Below, one piece after another: positions 16,106-24,746 of a stretch of DNA of 46,787 nucleotides. This DNA comes from Candidatus Faeciplasma pullistercoris (GTDB taxonomy: Bacteria > Bacillota > Clostridia > Oscillospirales > Ruminococcaceae). The DNA lies in assembly GCA_018715525.1 (NCBI GenBank), contig DVLL01000014.1, positions 1-46,787 of the forward strand. The letters run 5' to 3'. The notes beneath the pieces were generated by a model. That model was not told where the DNA came from, ran no database searches, and saw only the letters and a list, made by a program, of their open reading frames with translations. The position numbers and the translations under genes are program-made. Numbering within the stretch: the stretch's first letter is position 1; each line of letters starts with the position of its first letter.

Positions 16106-17173
16106 TTAGAGCTCAGCGAAGTACTTGATGGTTCTTACCATCTGGCTGGTGTAGGAGTTCTCGTTGTCGTACCAAGAAACAACCTGTACCTGATAGAGGT
16201 CATCAGCGATCTTAGCAACCATTGTCTGAGTAGCATCGAAGAGTGAGCCATATCTCATTCCGATAACATCAGAAGAAACGATAAGATCCTCGTTGTAGCC
16301 GTAGGACTCGGAAGCGGCAGCCTTCATAGCGGCGTTGATGCCCTCCTTGGTTATATCCTTGCCCTTAACAACAGCGGTAAGGATAGTGGTGGAACCGGTA
16401 GGAACGGGAACTCTCTGAGCAGAACCGATGAGCTTGCCGTTGAGCTCGGGAATTACAAGTCCGATAGCCTTAGCAGCGCCGGTGGAGTTAGGAACGATGT
16501 TAGCAGCACCTGCTCTTGCACGACGAAGGTCGCCCTTGCGGTGAGGACCGTCAAGGATCATCTGGTCGCCGGTGTAAGCATGAATGGTGGACATGATACC
16601 GCTCTGGATAGGAGCATAGTCGTTAAGAGCCTTAGCCATAGGAGCGAGGCAGTTGGTGGTGCAGGAAGCAGCGGAAATGATGGTGTCATCCTTAGTAAGG
16701 GTCTTCTCATTAACGCTGTAAACGATAGTAGGAAGATCATTTCCTGCGGGAGCGGAAATAACAACCTTCTTAGCGCCTGCGTCGATGTGAGCCTGGCTCT
16801 TAGCCTTGGAGCAATAGAAGCCGGTGCACTCAAGAACTACATCAACACCGAGCTCTCCCCAGGGAAGATCAGCAGCGTTGGGCTTAGCGTAAATTGTGAT
16901 CTCCTTGCCGTCAACGATGATGGCGCCGGGAGTAACAACAGTCTTGCCATCCTCTGCATATACAGCGGGCTTGCAGTCTACGGTGTGCTTGTTCTCGCCG
17001 ATCTTTCCGCAGTAGCCGCCCTGAGCGGTATCATACTTGAGAAGGTGAGCGAGCATCTCAGGCTTAGTAAGGTCGTTGATTGCTACTACCTCGTAGCCAT
17101 CAGCGTCGAACATCTGTCTGAAAGCAAGACGACCGATTCTGCCGAAACCATTAATTGCAACTTTTACTGACAT
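16106..17173 (-). CDS. gap: glyceraldehyde-3-phosphate dehydrogenase
   Basis: A 355-residue enzyme. The start is [15 protein letters not shown] because GGAGG lies 8 nt before this ATG, not the in-frame ATG at 17188. NAD site GFGRIGR, catalytic Cys171 in SAASCTTNC, and [13 protein letters not shown] close to the C-terminus. At 355 residues it is slightly longer than the usual 330-340, with an insertion near residues 70-82 (AEDGKTVV). It carries out the NAD-dependent oxidation of glyceraldehyde 3-phosphate in glycolysis. It is transcribed alone, leftward. Confidence 0.98.
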
Positions 17174-17208
17174 TTCAAAAACCTCCATAAGTTTTTAATG
17201 TACTTATT

Positions 17209-17397: not shown

Positions 17398-17441
17398 TTA
17401 TGTGATTTTATCACAGAAAAAACATTTTGACGTGGTATAAT
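17398..17441 (+). promoter_or_regulatory. CRP/FNR-type box with promoter of the trxA operon
   Basis: TTATGTGATT, TTA, TCACAGAA runs from 17398 to 17418 and contains TGTGA-N5-TCACA (17401-17415), with a 6-bp palindrome TGTGAT/ATCACA. TATAAT lies at 17436-17441. The -35 position has only ACAGAA, and the palindrome centre is about 40 nt before the expected start point. That is the class II activation geometry of CRP/FNR proteins. Confidence 0.8.
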
Positions 17442-17500: not shown

Positions 17501-17806
17501 ATGTCTGTAATCAATATCACTAAGGAAAACTTTAATACTGAGGTGCTCGGCTCTGATAAGCCCGTTCTTATCGACTTCTGGGCAAGCTGGTGCGGTCCAT
17601 GCAGAATGGTAAGCCCTATCGTAGACGAAATTGCTCAGGAGAGAACGGATATCAAGGTAGGAAAGGTAAATGTCGACGAGCAGTCCGAGCTCGCCGCGCA
17701 GTTCGGAGTAATGAGCATTCCTACTCTTGTAGTAATGAAGGACGGAAAGGTTGTCAACCGTTCTGTCGGCGCAAGACCTAAGAGGGACATTCTTTCCCTT
17801 CTGTAA
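17501..17806 (+). CDS. trxA: thioredoxin
   Basis: A 101-residue thioredoxin with the active site FWASWCGPCRM, GKVNVDEQ, cis-proline MSIPTLVVMKDG. It is about 5-8 residues short at the C-terminus compared with E. coli TrxA. AGGAGG lies before the ATG. It is first in an operon with a rhodanese and coenzyme A disulfide reductase, under a CRP/FNR-type box, so this thioredoxin probably serves a stress or sulfur role beyond housekeeping. Confidence 0.96.
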   Translation: MSVINITKENFNTEVLGSDKPVLIDFWASWCGPCRMVSPIVDEIAQERTDIKVGKVNVDEQSELAAQFGVMSIPTLVVMKDGKVVNRSVGARPKRDILSLL

Positions 17807-17818
17807 GGAGCTGATTAG

Positions 17819-18139
17819 ATGGGATTCTTCGATTTTCTCAAGCCCGCAGACATAAACGCAGGTGTGGAAAAATTTAAATCCACCGGAGGCGCTGTGCTTT
17901 TAGATGTGCGCACTCCGGCGGAGTACAAAAGCGGTCATATACCGGGAAGCAGAAATTTCCCGCTTGACTCTATAGAGACTCTTCCGCGAGTCATAGCTGA
18001 CAAGAACATACCTATATTCGTCCATTGCTTCAGCGGGGCGAGGAGCGGACAGGCAGCTTCAGCAATGAGGAGAATGGGCTACACCAATGTGACCAACATA
18101 GGCGGCATATCAGGATACCGCGGAAAGGTGGTAAAATAA
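17819..18139 (+). CDS. single-domain rhodanese
   Basis: A 106-residue rhodanese-like protein: LLDVRTPAEYKSGHIPGSRNF (CH2A-like), then HCFSGARSGQA with the active-site Cys in a six-residue loop, then GGISGYRGK. The six-residue Cys loop is typical of sulfurtransferases rather than phosphatases. AAGGAG lies before the ATG and it starts 12 nt after trxA. It probably carries persulfide to or from partners; the oxidoreductase gene 2 nt downstream carries its own rhodanese domain. Confidence 0.93.
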   Translation: MGFFDFLKPADINAGVEKFKSTGGAVLLDVRTPAEYKSGHIPGSRNFPLDSIETLPRVIADKNIPIFVHCFSGARSGQAASAMRRMGYTNVTNIGGISGYRGKVVK

Positions 18140-18140
18140 G

Positions 18141-19835
18141 ATGAAGATTGTCATCGTGGGAGGAGTCGCCGGCGGAGCTACAGCGGCCGCGAGACTTCGC
18201 AGACTTGACGAGAATGCCGAGATAATCGTATTTGAGCGCTCCGGCTTTGTGTCATACGCCAACTGCGGTCTTCCTTACTACATTGGAGGAGTGATTGAGA
18301 AAAAAGAAGAGCTCACCTTACAAACGCCGGAAAGCTTTAGAAGGCGTTTCAATGTTGATATGCGCGTCAGGCATGAGGTCACTAAGATAAATCCTGAAAG
18401 GAAAACGGTTTATGTCACTAACCTCGTCACCGGTGAAAGCTTTGAGGAAAGCTATGATAAGCTTATCCTGTCTCCGGGAGCTCGTCCGGTCAGACCTGAT
18501 TTTCCGGGAATAGAGTCTGATAAAATTTTCACGCTTCGCACGGTAGAGGACACATACAAGATAAAGGATTATATCAACGCGAATAAGCCTTCTTCCGCCG
18601 TTGTAGTAGGCGGAGGCTTCATAGGAATTGAAGCGGCGGAAAACCTTAAGGGGCTTGGAGTAGACGTAACATTAGTAGAGGCTATGAACCAGCTTATGGC
18701 TCCGTTTGACTATGACATTGCGGCGTTTATCCATGCCGAGGTGAGAAGAAAGGGCGTAAACCTCGTCTTAGGCAGAAAGCTTCAGGGCTTTAAGCCTGAC
18801 GGAGAGTCGCTGGAAGTAAGCATCGAGGACGGCTTGGGCATAAAAGCCGACATGGTTATTTTAGCGATGGGAGTTTCGCCTGATACCGCCATTGCAAAGG
18901 ACGCGGGGCTCAAGCTTGGAATCAAGGGAAGCATTGTCGTAAACGAGCATATGCAGACCTCAGATCCTGATATTTACGCAGTAGGCGACGCTGTTCAAAT
19001 CAAAAACTTTGTAACCGGAAAAGACGCTCTTATTTCGCTCGCAGGACCCGCCAATAAGCAGGGAAGAGTGGCTGCGGACAATATCTGCGGACTCAATAGC
19101 AGCTATAACGGCGGGCAGGGAAGCTCTGTGATAAAGATTTTCAGCCTTACCGCCGCATCGACAGGAATAAACGAGCGCACAGCAAAAAGCCTCGGCATCG
19201 AGTGCGACAAGGTGATTCTTTCGCCGTCCAGCCACGCGGGCTATTACCCTGGCGGAAAGGTGATGACTCTAAAGCTTGTCTTTGAGAAGGGCAGCTATAG
19301 AATCTTAGGCGCGCAGATAGCCGGCTATGACGGGGTGGACAAGAGAATAGATGTCCTTGCCACGGCGATAAGGGCGGGAATGAAGGCGTATGAGCTTGTC
19401 GAGCTCGACCTTGCGTACGCACCGCCGTATTCCTCGGCAAAGGACCCGGTAAACATGGCTGGATTCATGGCTGAGAACATCAAAAACGGGATTGTGAAGC
19501 AGTGGTACTATGAGGACGTTGACTCGTTGCCTATGGACGGCAGCGTAACGCTTCTCGACGTAAGAACTCACTCTGAGTATGCGCGCGGTCATATCGAAGG
19601 CTTTATAAATATTCCTGTTGACAGCTTAAGAGAGCGAATATCCGAGCTTGACAGTTCCAAGCCGGTATACGTTATCTGTCAAAGCGGCGTAAGAAGCTAT
19701 ATTGCGACGAGGATACTTATGGGACGTGGCTTTGAGTCATACAATTTTGCCGGAGGCTTCCGCTTCTACGACGCTGTAAGAAACGACAAGGCGCTTGCGG
19801 AGCGTTCTACGCTTTGCGGAATGGACGCAAACTAA
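18141..19835 (+). CDS. coenzyme A disulfide reductase with C-terminal rhodanese domain (CoADR-Rhd)
   Basis: A 564-residue flavoprotein. N-terminal FAD site VIVGGVAGGATAAARLR and the single catalytic cysteine in SYANCGLPYYIGG (Cys42), the CoADR signature. NAD(P)H site AVVVGGGFIGIEAAENL, FAD site DIYAVGDAVQI. From about residue 465 a rhodanese domain follows, with DVRTHSEYARGHIEGFINIP and the Cys513 loop CQSGVRS. Such fusions reduce CoA disulfide, persulfide or polysulfide with NAD(P)H. It is cytoplasmic and the last gene of the trxA operon, so thioredoxin, rhodanese and CoADR-Rhd form a sulfane-sulfur relay. Confidence 0.94.
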   Translation: MKIVIVGGVAGGATAAARLRRLDENAEIIVFERSGFVSYANCGLPYYIGGVIEKKEELTLQTPESFRRRFNVDMRVRHEVTKINPERKTVYVTNLVTGESFEESYDKLILSPGARPVRPDFPGIESDKIFTLRTVEDTYKIKDYINANKPSSAVVVGGGFIGIEAAENLKGLGVDVTLVEAMNQLMAPFDYDIAAFIHAEVRRKGVNLVLGRKLQGFKPDGESLEVSIEDGLGIKADMVILAMGVSPDTAIAKDAGLKLGIKGSIVVNEHMQTSDPDIYAVGDAVQIKNFVTGKDALISLAGPANKQGRVAADNICGLNSSYNGGQGSSVIKIFSLTAASTGINERTAKSLGIECDKVILSPSSHAGYYPGGKVMTLKLVFEKGSYRILGAQIAGYDGVDKRIDVLATAIRAGMKAYELVELDLAYAPPYSSAKDPVNMAGFMAENIKNGIVKQWYYEDVDSLPMDGSVTLLDVRTHSEYARGHIEGFINIPVDSLRERISELDSSKPVYVICQSGVRSYIATRILMGRGFESYNFAGGFRFYDAVRNDKALAERSTLCGMDAN

Positions 19836-19880: not shown

Positions 19881-20540
19881 CTATTCGTCTGCAAGGCTTT
19901 CAAGCTTACGCTTGTCGGTTATTTCTATCATTCCTCGCGAGAGCTTGACTACGCCTTCGTTTTGGAAGTATTTGAGCATTCTTGTAACTACCTCGCGGGG
20001 GCTGCCGAGGTGCTTTCCGATAGTCTCGTGAGTGATTTTAAGGGTGTCGTTTTCCTCTGTCAGGGCTTCGCTGAGTAAAAAGTTCGCCAGTCGCTTGTCA
20101 AAGCTCTGCCACATGATCTGGTCTATCAGCCACATTACATCGGTAAACCTGCTCGCCATGATTTCGTTTGTGTAGTTTGCAAGCGGCGCCGACTCCTGCA
20201 TCACGCTTTTGTATACCTCTGACGGTATGATTATCACCTCGGTGTCCTTTTCCGCCTCGATAGTGATATCGAATCTTATGCTGTTCATGATGCAGGATGC
20301 GGACAGGAGGCAGATATCTCTTTCAAACAGGGAGTAGATTGTTATTTCCCTGCCGTCGGAGGAGAGTATATATGCCCTGAGTTTACCTGACAGAATCAAA
20401 AATAGGCCTGTGCAGTCATTCGAGCCGTTGTGCAAAATCTCGCCCTTGCGGAATTTTTTTGTGGTGCAGCAGGACTGAAGCCTGTGCCGGTGCTCATCGG
20501 ACAATTTGTTCCAAACAGAAAGATATTCAAGGTAGTTCAA
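19881..20540 (-). CDS. CRP/FNR family transcriptional regulator
   Basis: A 219-residue protein: cyclic-nucleotide-binding-type beta barrel (residues about 25-120), a dimer helix, and a winged helix-turn-helix with KITHETIGKHLGSPREVVTR. The start is taken as the TTG at 20540: the longer frame's ATG at 20603 lies under the -35 box of the promoter at 20574-20603. The recognition helix reads S-P-R-E-V-V-T-R, so Arg182, Glu183 and Arg187 match Arg180, Glu181 and Arg185 of E. coli CRP, which read TGTGA half-sites. FNR-type N-terminal iron-sulfur cysteines are absent, but a Cys-Cys pair (24-25) and Cys43, 77 and 83 exist, which could allow redox sensing. Predicted to control the two TGTGA-type promoters in this island. 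Confidence 0.9.
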   Translation of the reverse strand: MNYLEYLSVWNKLSDEHRHRLQSCCTTKKFRKGEILHNGSNDCTGLFLILSGKLRAYILSSDGREITIYSLFERDICLLSASCIMNSIRFDITIEAEKDTEVIIIPSEVYKSVMQESAPLANYTNEIMASRFTDVMWLIDQIMWQSFDKRLANFLLSEALTEENDTLKITHETIGKHLGSPREVVTRMLKYFQNEGVVKLSRGMIEITDKRKLESLADE

Positions 20541-20573
20541 GCAGACACCCGCCTTTTTATTAAATACAATGCA

Positions 20574-20670
20574 AGTATACCACGCGTTCGGCAACGATGT
20601 CAAATCATCAAAAAAGTTTTATGTTCAACAAAAAAGTACGATTGACATCGATTGGCATGAATGATATCAT
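20574..20670. promoter_or_regulatory. divergent promoters with mirrored -35 elements
   Basis: Minus strand: TTGACA (20603-20598), 18-nt spacer, TATACT (20579-20574) for the regulator gene. Plus strand: TTGACA (20642-20647), 17-nt spacer, TATCAT (20665-20670) for the NifX-like gene. Both -35 boxes lie in the same 9-mer TTGACATCG, arranged as an inverted pair 38 nt apart, and the following bases are also similar. A shared operator is plausible. Confidence 0.75.
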
Positions 20671-20748: not shown

Positions 20749-21174
20749 ATGAGAATAGCTGTTGCGTATGATAACGGAGAAATTTTTCAGCATTTCGGCA
20801 GGACCGAGCAGTTCAAGGTGTATGATATCGAAGACGGAAAGGTCACGTCAAGCAAAATAGTCGGAACAGACGGTCAGGGACACGGCGCTCTTGCCGGAGT
20901 TTTGGGTACGATCGGCGCTGATGTGCTAATATGCGGTGGAATCGGCGCGGGAGCGCAGAACGCCGTATCTATGGCGGGAGTGAAGCTGTACGGCGGAGTG
21001 ACAGGCAGCGCGGACGAGGCGGTCAGCGCGTATTTAAGCGGCAGTCTTGATTTTGACCCGAATGTTATGTGTGACCATCATCACCATGATGAAGGTAATA
21101 GCTGCGGCTCTCATGGCTGCGGCTCTCATGGCTGCGGCGAACACACCTGCGGCTCGCACGGCTGCGGACACTGA
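20749..21174 (+). CDS. NifX/NifB-type metal-cofactor-binding protein with Cys/His-rich tail
   Basis: A 141-residue protein. Residues 1-105 are the dinitrogenase iron-molybdenum cofactor biosynthesis fold: MRIAVAYDNGEIFQHFGRTE, FKVYDI, then GHGALAGVLGTIGADVLICG, GIGAGAQNAV. The tail (about 108-141) contains CDHHHHDEG, then repeated CGSHGCG units, giving about 9 Cys and 9 His in 34 residues, a probable metal-binding arm. No nif genes are present, so it more likely handles iron-sulfur or other metals for the redox proteins downstream. An 89-nt gap with a hairpin separates it from the next gene. Confidence 0.85.
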   Translation: MRIAVAYDNGEIFQHFGRTEQFKVYDIEDGKVTSSKIVGTDGQGHGALAGVLGTIGADVLICGGIGAGAQNAVSMAGVKLYGGVTGSADEAVSAYLSGSLDFDPNVMCDHHHHDEGNSCGSHGCGSHGCGEHTCGSHGCGH

Positions 21175-23054: not shown

Positions 23055-23099
23055 TTATGTGATTAAGTCACAGAATTGCCGATCGGGATCGGTTATACT
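23055..23099 (+). promoter_or_regulatory. CRP/FNR-type box with promoter of the DUF6132-CcdA-TlpA operon
   Basis: TTATGTGATT, AAG, TCACAGAA (23055-23075) matches the trxA box in every position except the three in the middle. TATACT is at 23094-23099 and the -35 position has the weak CAGAAT. The palindrome centre again lies about 41 nt before the expected start point. Confidence 0.8.
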
Positions 23100-23143: not shown

Positions 23144-23374
23144 ATGAAAACTAAACTGATAAAAATTCTGAGAAAGTCTGTTAAGCCGTTGATTTTTATC
23201 GCGGCAGGCGTTATCGTGGGCGTAGCGTACTATTATCTTGTAGTTTGCGAGTCGGGAAGCTGTCCGCTGAAATCAAGTCCGTGGATGACAGGCGCGTATG
23301 TCGGGCTGATAGGGCTTTTGGTGTCAGGAATATTTTCAAAGTCAGGGGGAGACAGTGACAAATGCAATATGTGA
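23144..23374 (+). CDS. DUF6132-type small membrane protein
   Basis: A 76-residue protein with two membrane segments (residues about 13-35 and 48-66) separated by a loop holding CESGSCPLKSSPWMTGAY. The start at 23144 is chosen because GGAG lies 9 nt upstream. The Cys-x4-Cys loop (CESGSC) and the small size match DUF6132 proteins, which are often found with thiol and redox membrane genes. It overlaps ccdA by 13 nt. The function is unknown; a membrane thiol partner is an inference. Confidence 0.75.
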   Translation: MKTKLIKILRKSVKPLIFIAAGVIVGVAYYYLVVCESGSCPLKSSPWMTGAYVGLIGLLVSGIFSKSGGDSDKCNM

Positions 23375-24024
23375 TACTTTTTCTCGAGGGCGTCATAACT
23401 TTTATCTCGCCATGCCTTTTGCCGATGCTTCCGATATACATCTCCTATTTTGCCGGAGGGGAAGAGCGATCCATGGGAAAAACTGTTAAAGGCGCGCTTG
23501 GCTTTGTGACCGGCTTTACGGTAATTTTTACAGCCATGGGGGCGCTCGCCGGCACTGTCGGAAGCTTTTTGACGAGGTATCAGACCGCTGTCAATATCAT
23601 TACCGGACTGATCGTGGTCTTCTTCGGTCTTTGCTATCTCGGAGTATTCAAGTTTAGTATTTTCAAGGGCAGCAGCCGCGAAGTGGATACCAAGATCACC
23701 GGATTTTTCCCTGCCATGCTTTTCGGAATGATATTCTCGATAGGCTGGACGCCGTGTGTGGGAGCGTTTTTAGGCTCGGCGCTTTTGCTGGCTTCTCAGC
23801 AGGGTCATGTTCTTGAGGGAACGCTTATGCTATTGGTATTCTCCCTCGGACTGGGAATACCTTTCATACTGAGCGCGGTGCTGATAGATTATTTAAAGAC
23901 TACTTTTAACTGGATTAAAAAGCATTACCGTATTATAAACATAATAAGCGGCTGCCTTTTGATACTGATAGGTATTATGATGGCTACGGGTACGCTTGGC
24001 GCGCTGCTTGCTTTATTGAGCTGA
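23362..24024 (+). CDS. ccdA: CcdA/DsbD-type thiol-disulfide electron carrier
   Basis: A 220-residue membrane protein with six predicted helices. Conserved cysteines lie in FISPCLLPMLP (helix 1) and GWTPCVGAFLGSALL (helix 4), the pair that carries electrons across the membrane in CcdA. It overlaps the preceding gene and is followed by a TlpA-like protein 20 nt on, so it should pass electrons from cytoplasmic thioredoxin (trxA, same regulon) to that extracellular thioredoxin. Cytochrome c maturation genes are absent from the window; a role in extracytoplasmic thiol reduction or oxygen defence fits better. Confidence 0.93.
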   Translation: MQYVILFLEGVITFISPCLLPMLPIYISYFAGGEERSMGKTVKGALGFVTGFTVIFTAMGALAGTVGSFLTRYQTAVNIITGLIVVFFGLCYLGVFKFSIFKGSSREVDTKITGFFPAMLFGMIFSIGWTPCVGAFLGSALLLASQQGHVLEGTLMLLVFSLGLGIPFILSAVLIDYLKTTFNWIKKHYRIINIISGCLLILIGIMMATGTLGALLALLS

Positions 24025-24044: not shown

Positions 24045-24746
24045 ATGAAAACGAATAATAAGACCTTGGCTTTGGTAATTATACTTGTTTTTGTCTTACT
24101 TATCGGCGGAGCATATATGCTGTACAGCAGGCTGAGCCGGGATTACTCCTCCGAGCAGCTTGTCACCGAGCAGAATGTCAACAGGAATGAGCCGTCTGAT
24201 TCGGATACACAGGGCTCGGGCAGCGATTCGGATGCTGGCGATAATTCGGAGCAGGCATCTGACTCATCGGACGAGACAGGGACCGCCTCAGGCGATAGCG
24301 AACCGGACTCGGACGAGCTTTCCACGGCGCCGGACTTTACCGTTTACGACATAGACGGCAATGAGGTCAAGCTTTCGGACTACTTTGGGAAGCCGATAGT
24401 ACTAAACTTCTGGGCGAGCTGGTGCGGTCCGTGTAAAAGCGAGATGCCGGAGTTTAACGAGATGTATTCCGAGCTTGACGGCGAGGTGATATTCCTGATG
24501 GTCAACATGACCGACGGAAGCCGCGAGACAGTCGAGTCCGCAAGCGAATATGTAAGCGAAGAGGGCTTTAGCTTCCCGGTAATGTACGACACAGCGCAGG
24601 ACGCAGCATATACCTATGCGGTGTACTCGCTGCCTACGACCTATTTTTTGGATGAAGAAGGGTATCTGATCGCGCGCGCCGTGGGAGCGATAGACAAGGA
24701 CACCTTGCAGCAGGGTATAGATATGATATACACTCCGGAGGAGTAA
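24045..24746 (+). CDS. TlpA/ResA-like extracellular thioredoxin
   Basis: A 233-residue membrane-anchored protein. Hydrophobic anchor at residues about 8-26, then a strongly acidic Ser/Asp/Glu linker (about 45-92), then a thioredoxin fold with WASWCGPC (Cys127, Cys130) and a cis-proline in YSLPTTYFLDEEG. The PDFTVYDIDGNEVKLSD start of the fold is typical of the TlpA/ResA group. Its partner CcdA lies immediately upstream, and the operon ends in a strong terminator. The substrate is not identifiable. GGAGG lies before the ATG. Confidence 0.93.
   Translation: MKTNNKTLALVIILVFVLLIGGAYMLYSRLSRDYSSEQLVTEQNVNRNEPSDSDTQGSGSDSDAGDNSEQASDSSDETGTASGDSEPDSDELSTAPDFTVYDIDGNEVKLSDYFGKPIVLNFWASWCGPCKSEMPEFNEMYSELDGEVIFLMVNMTDGSRETVESASEYVSEEGFSFPVMYDTAQDAAYTYAVYSLPTTYFLDEEGYLIARAVGAIDKDTLQQGIDMIYTPEE

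Follow-up and report, generated by a model that had tools for sequence, protein, structure and literature searches.

Twin TGTGA-N5-TCACA boxes before the trxA and ccdA operons of Candidatus Faeciplasma pullistercoris, probable operators of a CRP/FNR-family protein encoded between them

In our view, the sensing of oxygen and thiol damage by strict gut anaerobes, beyond control by PerR, Rex, and sigma-B, is poorly known. In a 46,787-nucleotide contig of Candidatus Faeciplasma pullistercoris (the window, that is, the whole stretch of DNA analyzed), two thiol-redox operons carry nearly the same short palindrome ahead of their first start codons. Which protein reads these boxes, and to what effect? 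The pattern TTATGTGATT-N3-TCACAGAA has exactly two copies in the window, at 17398-17418 (TTATGTGATTTTATCACAGAA) and 23055-23075 (TTATGTGATTAAGTCACAGAA), 5.66 kb apart, both of the form TGTGA-N5-TCACA. The two copies share 18 of 21 bases, and their flanks differ in sequence. None is expected by chance, as 100 dinucleotide shuffles gave zero box matches even with three mismatches allowed. In a genome-wide scan (1.71 Mb, 96% complete), the window's two were the sole exact copies, and one further genomic place lay within three mismatches of the box, with the palindrome absent there. A sequence-only reading had proposed that the trxA and ccdA promoters share one regulator site and that this operator is one base shorter than the CRP/FNR form; at the level of sequence, the exact twin matches and their N5 spacer bear out both points. 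The features concerned are as follows.

17398..17418, + strand: putative operator box 1 (trxA operon), TGTGA-N5-TCACA with right arm TCACAGAA; exact match, 0 expected
17436..17441, + strand: TATAAT, the predicted -10 of the trxA promoter, 20 nt past TCACA
17501..17806, + strand: trxA, thioredoxin (Pfam Thioredoxin 3.5e-32; NCBIfam TIGR01068 above cutoff)
17819..18139, + strand: rhodanese-domain protein (Pfam Rhodanese 2e-18)
18141..19835, + strand: CoA-disulfide-reductase-like protein with a C-terminal rhodanese domain (Pfam Pyr_redox_2, Rhodanese; TIGR03385 520 bits, below the cutoff of 579)
19881..20603, - strand: CRP/FNR-family regulator (Pfam HTH_Crp_2, cNMP_binding); the true start may be a TTG near 20540
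23055..23075, + strand: putative operator box 2 (ccdA operon); exact match, its TGTGATTAAGTCACAGAA part identical in the relative G030
23094..23099, + strand: TATACT, the predicted -10 of the ccdA promoter, 21 nt past TCACA
23144..23374, + strand: small membrane protein of 76 aa that opens the ccdA operon
23362..24024, + strand: ccdA-type membrane thiol-electron carrier (Pfam DsbD_TM 4.5e-21)
24045..24746, + strand: TlpA/ResA-like membrane-anchored thioredoxin (Pfam AhpC-TSA 1.1e-24; NCBIfam ResA subfamily 110 bits, below the cutoff of 170)

Behind box 1, the operon starts with trxA (start codon at 17501) and continues with the rhodanese gene and the CoA-disulfide-reductase-like gene with its rhodanese domain. 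Behind box 2 come the 76-aa membrane ORF (start codon at 23144), ccdA (23362), and the TlpA/ResA-like gene; the 76-aa protein (23144-23374) has a few cysteines, and its ORF overlaps ccdA. The regulator gene, absent from the sequence-only reading, sits between the two operons on the minus strand.

The fold of this regulator is that of the CRP/FNR superfamily (cNMP_binding, 1.2e-10; HTH_Crp_2, 3.4e-15). Its closest solved chain is 3dv8 (E 1.2e-87), a Crp/Fnr protein of Eubacterium rectale that is similar over nearly the full length and has the DCTG and CLLSASC motifs in common with it. The better-known CRP and FNR did not fit. A true CRP, the cAMP receptor, was rejected at 45.7 bits against a PRK11753 cutoff of 266, and FNR, whose site is TTGAT-N4-ATCAA, at 39.4 bits against a PRK11161 cutoff of 228 and on the GTGA type of the site. 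Similarity to CooA, whose haem ligands are Cys75/His77 and the N-terminal Pro, is weak (4.8e-10); a CooA Cys aligns with C104 of the regulator, and a Ser is paired with the His of the CMHSGC stretch. Cysteines at positions 64, 98, and 104 are found in 77 of 81 aligned sequences, the other four being gapped there, and R203, E204, and R208 are also unchanged in 77/81. All six residues recur in 80/80 proteins of the named loci (the best 80 of 590, 7 of them overlapping the earlier set) and in 10 of 10 further, partly distant proteins, except for C104 (9/10). From the reading helix, half-sites of the GTGA type are predicted: in the portion of the source cited here (PMC1274295), G3 and A6 of the motif are tied to R180 and E181 of CRP-type helices, and the constant R203/E204/R208, which belong to the class of residues paired with G3/A6 of TGTGA, fit such a half-site. 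PgRsp of Porphyromonas gingivalis, a CRP/FNR protein modelled on 3DV8, is described in the part of its report drawn on here as binding haem and as linked to oxidative stress (PMC6955866). By analogy with PgRsp, and given the conserved cysteines and the CooA Cys aligned with C104, redox sensing by the regulator is likely. The cysteines could form a disulfide or hold a metal, an iron-sulfur cluster, or haem.

The spacing of the box follows this protein into other genomes. In 58 loci (205 kb) around regulator relatives, TGTGA-Nk-TCACA with k = 5 gave five exact and 26 one-mismatch sites; at none of the nine other spacings were there exact sites or more than four one-mismatch sites. In 80 longer loci (1.06 Mb), the N5 pattern GTGAY-NNN-RTCAC had 84 sites versus 2 for N4, 5 for N6, 1 for N7, and 4 for N3, and 59 of the 80 loci held an exact-core N5 box. 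Six of these 80 (G186, G183, G268, G209, G138, and G044) had been picked knowing that a box lay nearby; the other 74 hold 74 N5 sites, 57 with a -10 at 21, versus 0-5 sites at seven other spacings. A set of 73 named loci, for which similarity to the regulator was the sole criterion (the best 80 of 590, less 7 overlaps), gave 75 N5 sites in 54 loci and 0-8 sites at ten other spacings. It includes Anaerobutyricum hallii, Oliverpabstia intestinalis, Enterocloster hominis, Mordavella massiliensis, two Lachnoclostridium strains, and Oscillibacter and Dysosmobacter assemblies. The locus of the commensal A. hallii DSM 3353 (L251) is among those with an N5 box close by. The exact-core box is absent from 21 of the 80 and 19 of the 73 regulator loci. 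N6 and N4 spacings were rejected, as neither is enriched in any locus set; the half-site spacing usual for CRP/FNR proteins (GA-N6-TC) is not the one found. The N5 operator is a variant, and the protein fold still places the regulator in the CRP/FNR superfamily. Distant regulators (L354-L358) also have N5 boxes in the same stretch. At L354 (genome G923), where the regulator scores about 100 bits, N5 boxes with a -10 stand before the regulator gene, trxA, a CoADR-like gene, and a gene for a CGNLCP-motif membrane protein, which indicates that even a far relative keeps the N5 form.

The box also holds a nearly fixed place in the promoter. Its centre lies at about -40/-41 in both window promoters if the -10 is taken as -12 to -7, the start points being predicted; this agrees with the class II activator geometry suggested earlier for the pair. 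Among relatives, 64 of 84 distinct sites in the 80 loci and 56 of 75 in the 73 named loci have a TATAAT-like hexamer (at least 5/6) that begins exactly 21 nt past the box. Other offsets have 0-10 sites in the former (offsets 5-44), among them 5 and 8 at the neighbouring 20 and 22, and 0-5 in the latter (offsets 10-59). With the -10 at -12 to -7, an offset of 21 nt puts the box centre at -41, so that relative to predicted start points the boxes show the centre near -41 and the fixed distance to the -10 of class II sites.

In all, 159 exact-core sites were collected in 153 loci, 135 of them with a -10 at 20-22, and the 120 of these 135 with spacing 21 and full flanks gave the logo GTGAYNWNRTCACRGAA. 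Selection fixed or biased its GTGAY...RTCAC and -10 columns and left the spacer and the outside positions free. At the dyad, 119 of 120 promoters have A or T. To the right of the dyad, G at +8 (118/120) and A at +9 (111/120) far outdo their left mirror bases, C at -8 (16/120) and T at -9 (65/120), and they fall where GA stands in a TTGACA -35 given a 17-bp spacer; we therefore take the right arm of the box in these 120 promoters of relatives to overlap a degenerate -35, CRGAAA, with a nearly constant GA. Sigma probably still touches this element. The idea that the box replaces a weak -35 needs a correction: a degenerate -35 is present rather than simply absent.

The sequence-only reading was not refuted by its own check, conservation of the box in related genomes: the box does accompany the regulator gene across family and class. 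Within the genus (31 genomes), a close regulator occurs in only two, our own genome and G030, whose protein is 98% identical; G003 and G002 carry a relative of 39-41%, 12 genomes give weak matches (E 4e-7 to 1e-3), and 15 give none. G030 has the same ccdA box, the one that the comparison covers, the trxA promoter lying past the end of its contig. G003 has an N5 box before trxA and, with one mismatch, before ccdA, and G002 has a GTGA-N5-TCAC box before trxA and a small gene resembling ferredoxin-thioredoxin reductase. In the promoters of these three genomes, the -10 begins 20 or 21 nt after the box. Exact palindromes in G018, G029, G010, and G027 of the genus have no cluster genes alongside and look like chance.

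In 297 family genomes, with regulator-positive meaning E 1e-30 or better, the plain palindrome TGTGAYNNNRTCACA was present in 60 of 125 genomes with the regulator versus 34 of 172 without (p 3e-7), and its reversed control gave 13 and 11 sites. The composite pattern GTGAYNWNRTCACNGA-N18-20-TANNNT was present in 79 of 125 regulator-positive versus 10 of 172 negative genomes (p 7e-28; 129 and 11 sites, 3 for the reversed pattern) and absent from 46 of the 125; it was built from a logo drawn partly from the same genomes and is not independent of that logo, whereas the plain-palindrome test is. Among 311 genomes of the class, the composite pattern followed regulator similarity: 31/55 with a close regulator, 4/18 at mid-distance, 6/21 with a weak match, and 9/217 with none, against 5 sites for the reversed control. 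It was missing from 24 of the 55 close-regulator and 14 of the 18 mid-distance genomes.

In our own genome, the composite pattern picks out three sites, those of trxA, ccdA, and an NrdG2-type activase. The last lies on another contig (C2, 38066-38107; locus L123), 157 nt before the gene for this radical-SAM protein (212 bits versus a cutoff of 131), and suggests that ribonucleotide reduction joins the regulon here. This is the only one of the genome's 12 one-mismatch sites (14 sites in all versus 4 for the reversed control) to match the composite promoter pattern; several of the others fall within long ORFs. Neither the third site, nor the nearly constant GA of the -35, nor the wide occurrence of the box figured in the sequence-only reading.

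The genes behind the 135 boxes belong mainly to the thioredoxin system and to oxygen defence. A thioredoxin-fold or thioredoxin-reductase cluster accounts for 82, followed by small ferredoxin (15), CoADR/rhodanese (13), rubredoxin-type (5), a presumed short-chain-dehydrogenase-like cluster named by motif (4), desulfoferrodoxin (3), ferredoxin-thioredoxin-reductase-like (3), ferritin (2), an unnamed small protein (2), and six singletons. The singletons include a flavo-diiron-type protein, MsrA-MsrB, and the regulator itself, and two of 50-51 aa are probably miscalled ORFs; 7 of the 15 downstream clusters, and one window-type gene, were checked by Pfam. Recurrence before orthologous operons is clear for trxA, with a box within 450 bp upstream in 89 of 110 matches. 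Directly before ccdA (up to 450 bp), an exact-core box is rare, at 2 of 20 matches. A co-oriented box and promoter up to 3.5 kb upstream were found for CoADR in 58/76, for ccdA in 16/20, and for desulfoferrodoxin in 13/19, versus 3, 2, and 2 in the opposite orientation. NifX was rarely behind a box (5 of 23 places in 169 loci, versus 2 in the opposite orientation).

Sequence comparison establishes that the box is real and has the N5 form, that it goes with the regulator, where it sits in the promoter, which genes it precedes, and which residues of the regulator are conserved. We put a probability of about 0.83 on the reading that both boxes are operators of the CRP/FNR protein encoded between them and that this protein is an N5 class II activator of a thiol/oxygen stress regulon. 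From the same sequences, we infer binding, activation rather than repression, and the signal. Arg203-Glu204-x3-Arg208, which corresponds to R180/E181/R185 of CRP, would let the regulator dimer read the GTGA half-sites, and these are spaced one base pair more tightly than those of CRP or FNR. At -40/-41, over the degenerate -35 (CRGAAA), the bound dimer would help RNA polymerase to start, as in class II activation. The signal is probably thiol oxidation or exposure to oxygen, perceived via C64, C98, and C104 of the sensor domain, and the regulon would repair cytoplasmic and exported thiols (TrxA, TrxB, CoADR-Rhd, rhodanese, CcdA-TlpA) and remove oxygen species.

The same regulator could instead act on the N5 box as a repressor, with the -35 region blocked until stress releases the protein. 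In the 120 logo promoters, the box lies over the -35 position, where a bound protein can occlude polymerase; moreover, the HcpR of Desulfovibrio is predicted, in the part of the study cited, to activate or repress according to site position (PMC545781). A repressor would, however, have no need of a position fixed almost to one base, as seen in the predominance of the 21-nt offset (64/84, versus 5 and 8 at 20 and 22), and the -35 is so poor that the promoter should need help. Repression is thus an unlikely reading. Far less likely still is that a different protein acts on the box, with the CRP gene as a mere neighbour. Odd-length palindromes are common for Fur-family proteins, and a Fur/PerR-type (7-1-7) or MarR-type regulator would suit one; composite sites were also present without a detected close CRP relative in the 10/172 family and 9/217 class genomes already mentioned. 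Against this stand the genome-wide co-occurrence of box and regulator in family and class, the fit of the GTGA half-site to a constant CRP-type helix, and the distance between them: of 80 loci, 6 of which had been picked with a box in view, 42 have a box of no more than one mismatch less than 1.5 kb from the regulator gene, versus 2-5 loci for five other spacings. Some regulator genes also carry the box themselves (L269, L354). That the twin boxes arose by chance or as a duplication artefact is barely credible. The agreement of 18 of 21 bases is what a recent promoter copy would give, but shuffling gives no such box, the flanking bases differ, other genera have the box ahead of different redox genes, and both the N5 enrichment in the two locus sets and the family co-occurrence contradict it.

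Activation by the CRP/FNR protein encoded between the operons may be one case of something wider. Taken together as a single proposition, we hold it slightly more probable than its opposite that a Clostridia-wide CRP/FNR subfamily, with half-sites closer by one base pair than in the CRP/FNR operators described in the literature covered, hence a changed geometry of the dimer or of the bent DNA, and with a three-cysteine redox sensor of a new kind, is a general activator under thiol and oxygen stress in gut anaerobes, its regulon comprising oxygen-defence enzymes, the CcdA-TlpA relay for export, thioredoxin, CoA-disulfide reductase, and, here, the ribonucleotide reductase activase. The class II sites of E. 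coli CRP are TGTGA-N6-TCACA. The regulator resembles E. coli CRP in its GTGA half-sites, its R-E-x3-R reading helix, and a site centred near -41, and differs from it in the N5 spacer (an odd palindrome), the conserved cysteines of the sensor domain, and the redox targets. HcpR and HcpR2, which regulate hcp, are likewise CRP/FNR proteins of anaerobes with stress targets, and Desulfovibrio HcpR has TGTGA half-sites; their motifs, as given in the part of the source used, are wTGTGA-N6-TCACAw, wyTTGAC-N4-GTCAArw, and GTAAC-N4-GTTAC (PMC1274295). We rejected HcpR on the N5 palindrome, the thioredoxin-system genes downstream, and the lack of an hcp-like cluster among the 15 downstream clusters. PgRsp is also a redox-linked CRP/FNR protein with the same E. 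rectale structure, 3DV8, as its model, and among the papers listed only the PgRsp paper names 3DV8; the promoters tested there were hmu, bcp, and its own, and the words "consensus" and "TGTGA" are absent from its main text (PMC6955866). In Clostridia, the trx genes of C. difficile are also induced by oxygen, and the sections cited of a 2024 study name sigma-B and sigma-A promoters and report oxygen induction of the sigma-A-transcribed trxA, with no regulator named there and the words CRP and FNR absent from the main text (PMC10880999). In the open-access literature covered by our search, we found no description of an N5-box regulon. From the sequence patterns, the system looks like a widespread clostridial circuit for oxygen and thiol stress, for which many species now have a regulator gene, a precisely defined operator, a rule for promoter position, and a list of targets; it also raises the structural question of how a CRP-fold dimer reads an odd-length palindrome.

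Other genes near the boxes deserve mention. A type I GAPDH gene (16106-17188), for an enzyme type that is redox-sensitive, is divergent from trxA, with 209 bp from its start to box 1. At 20749-21174, a gene for a NifX/NafY-type (Nitro_FeMo-Co) protein with a His/Cys-rich tail and CGSHGCG repeats heads a four-gene set with two rubredoxin-domain proteins and a desulfoferrodoxin. Before the regulator gene and these NifX/rubredoxin/desulfoferrodoxin genes of the window, the best N5 box is a two-mismatch match at 20598-20612. At L282 (2674), a thioredoxin fused to thioredoxin reductase (419 aa) is encoded behind an N5 box.
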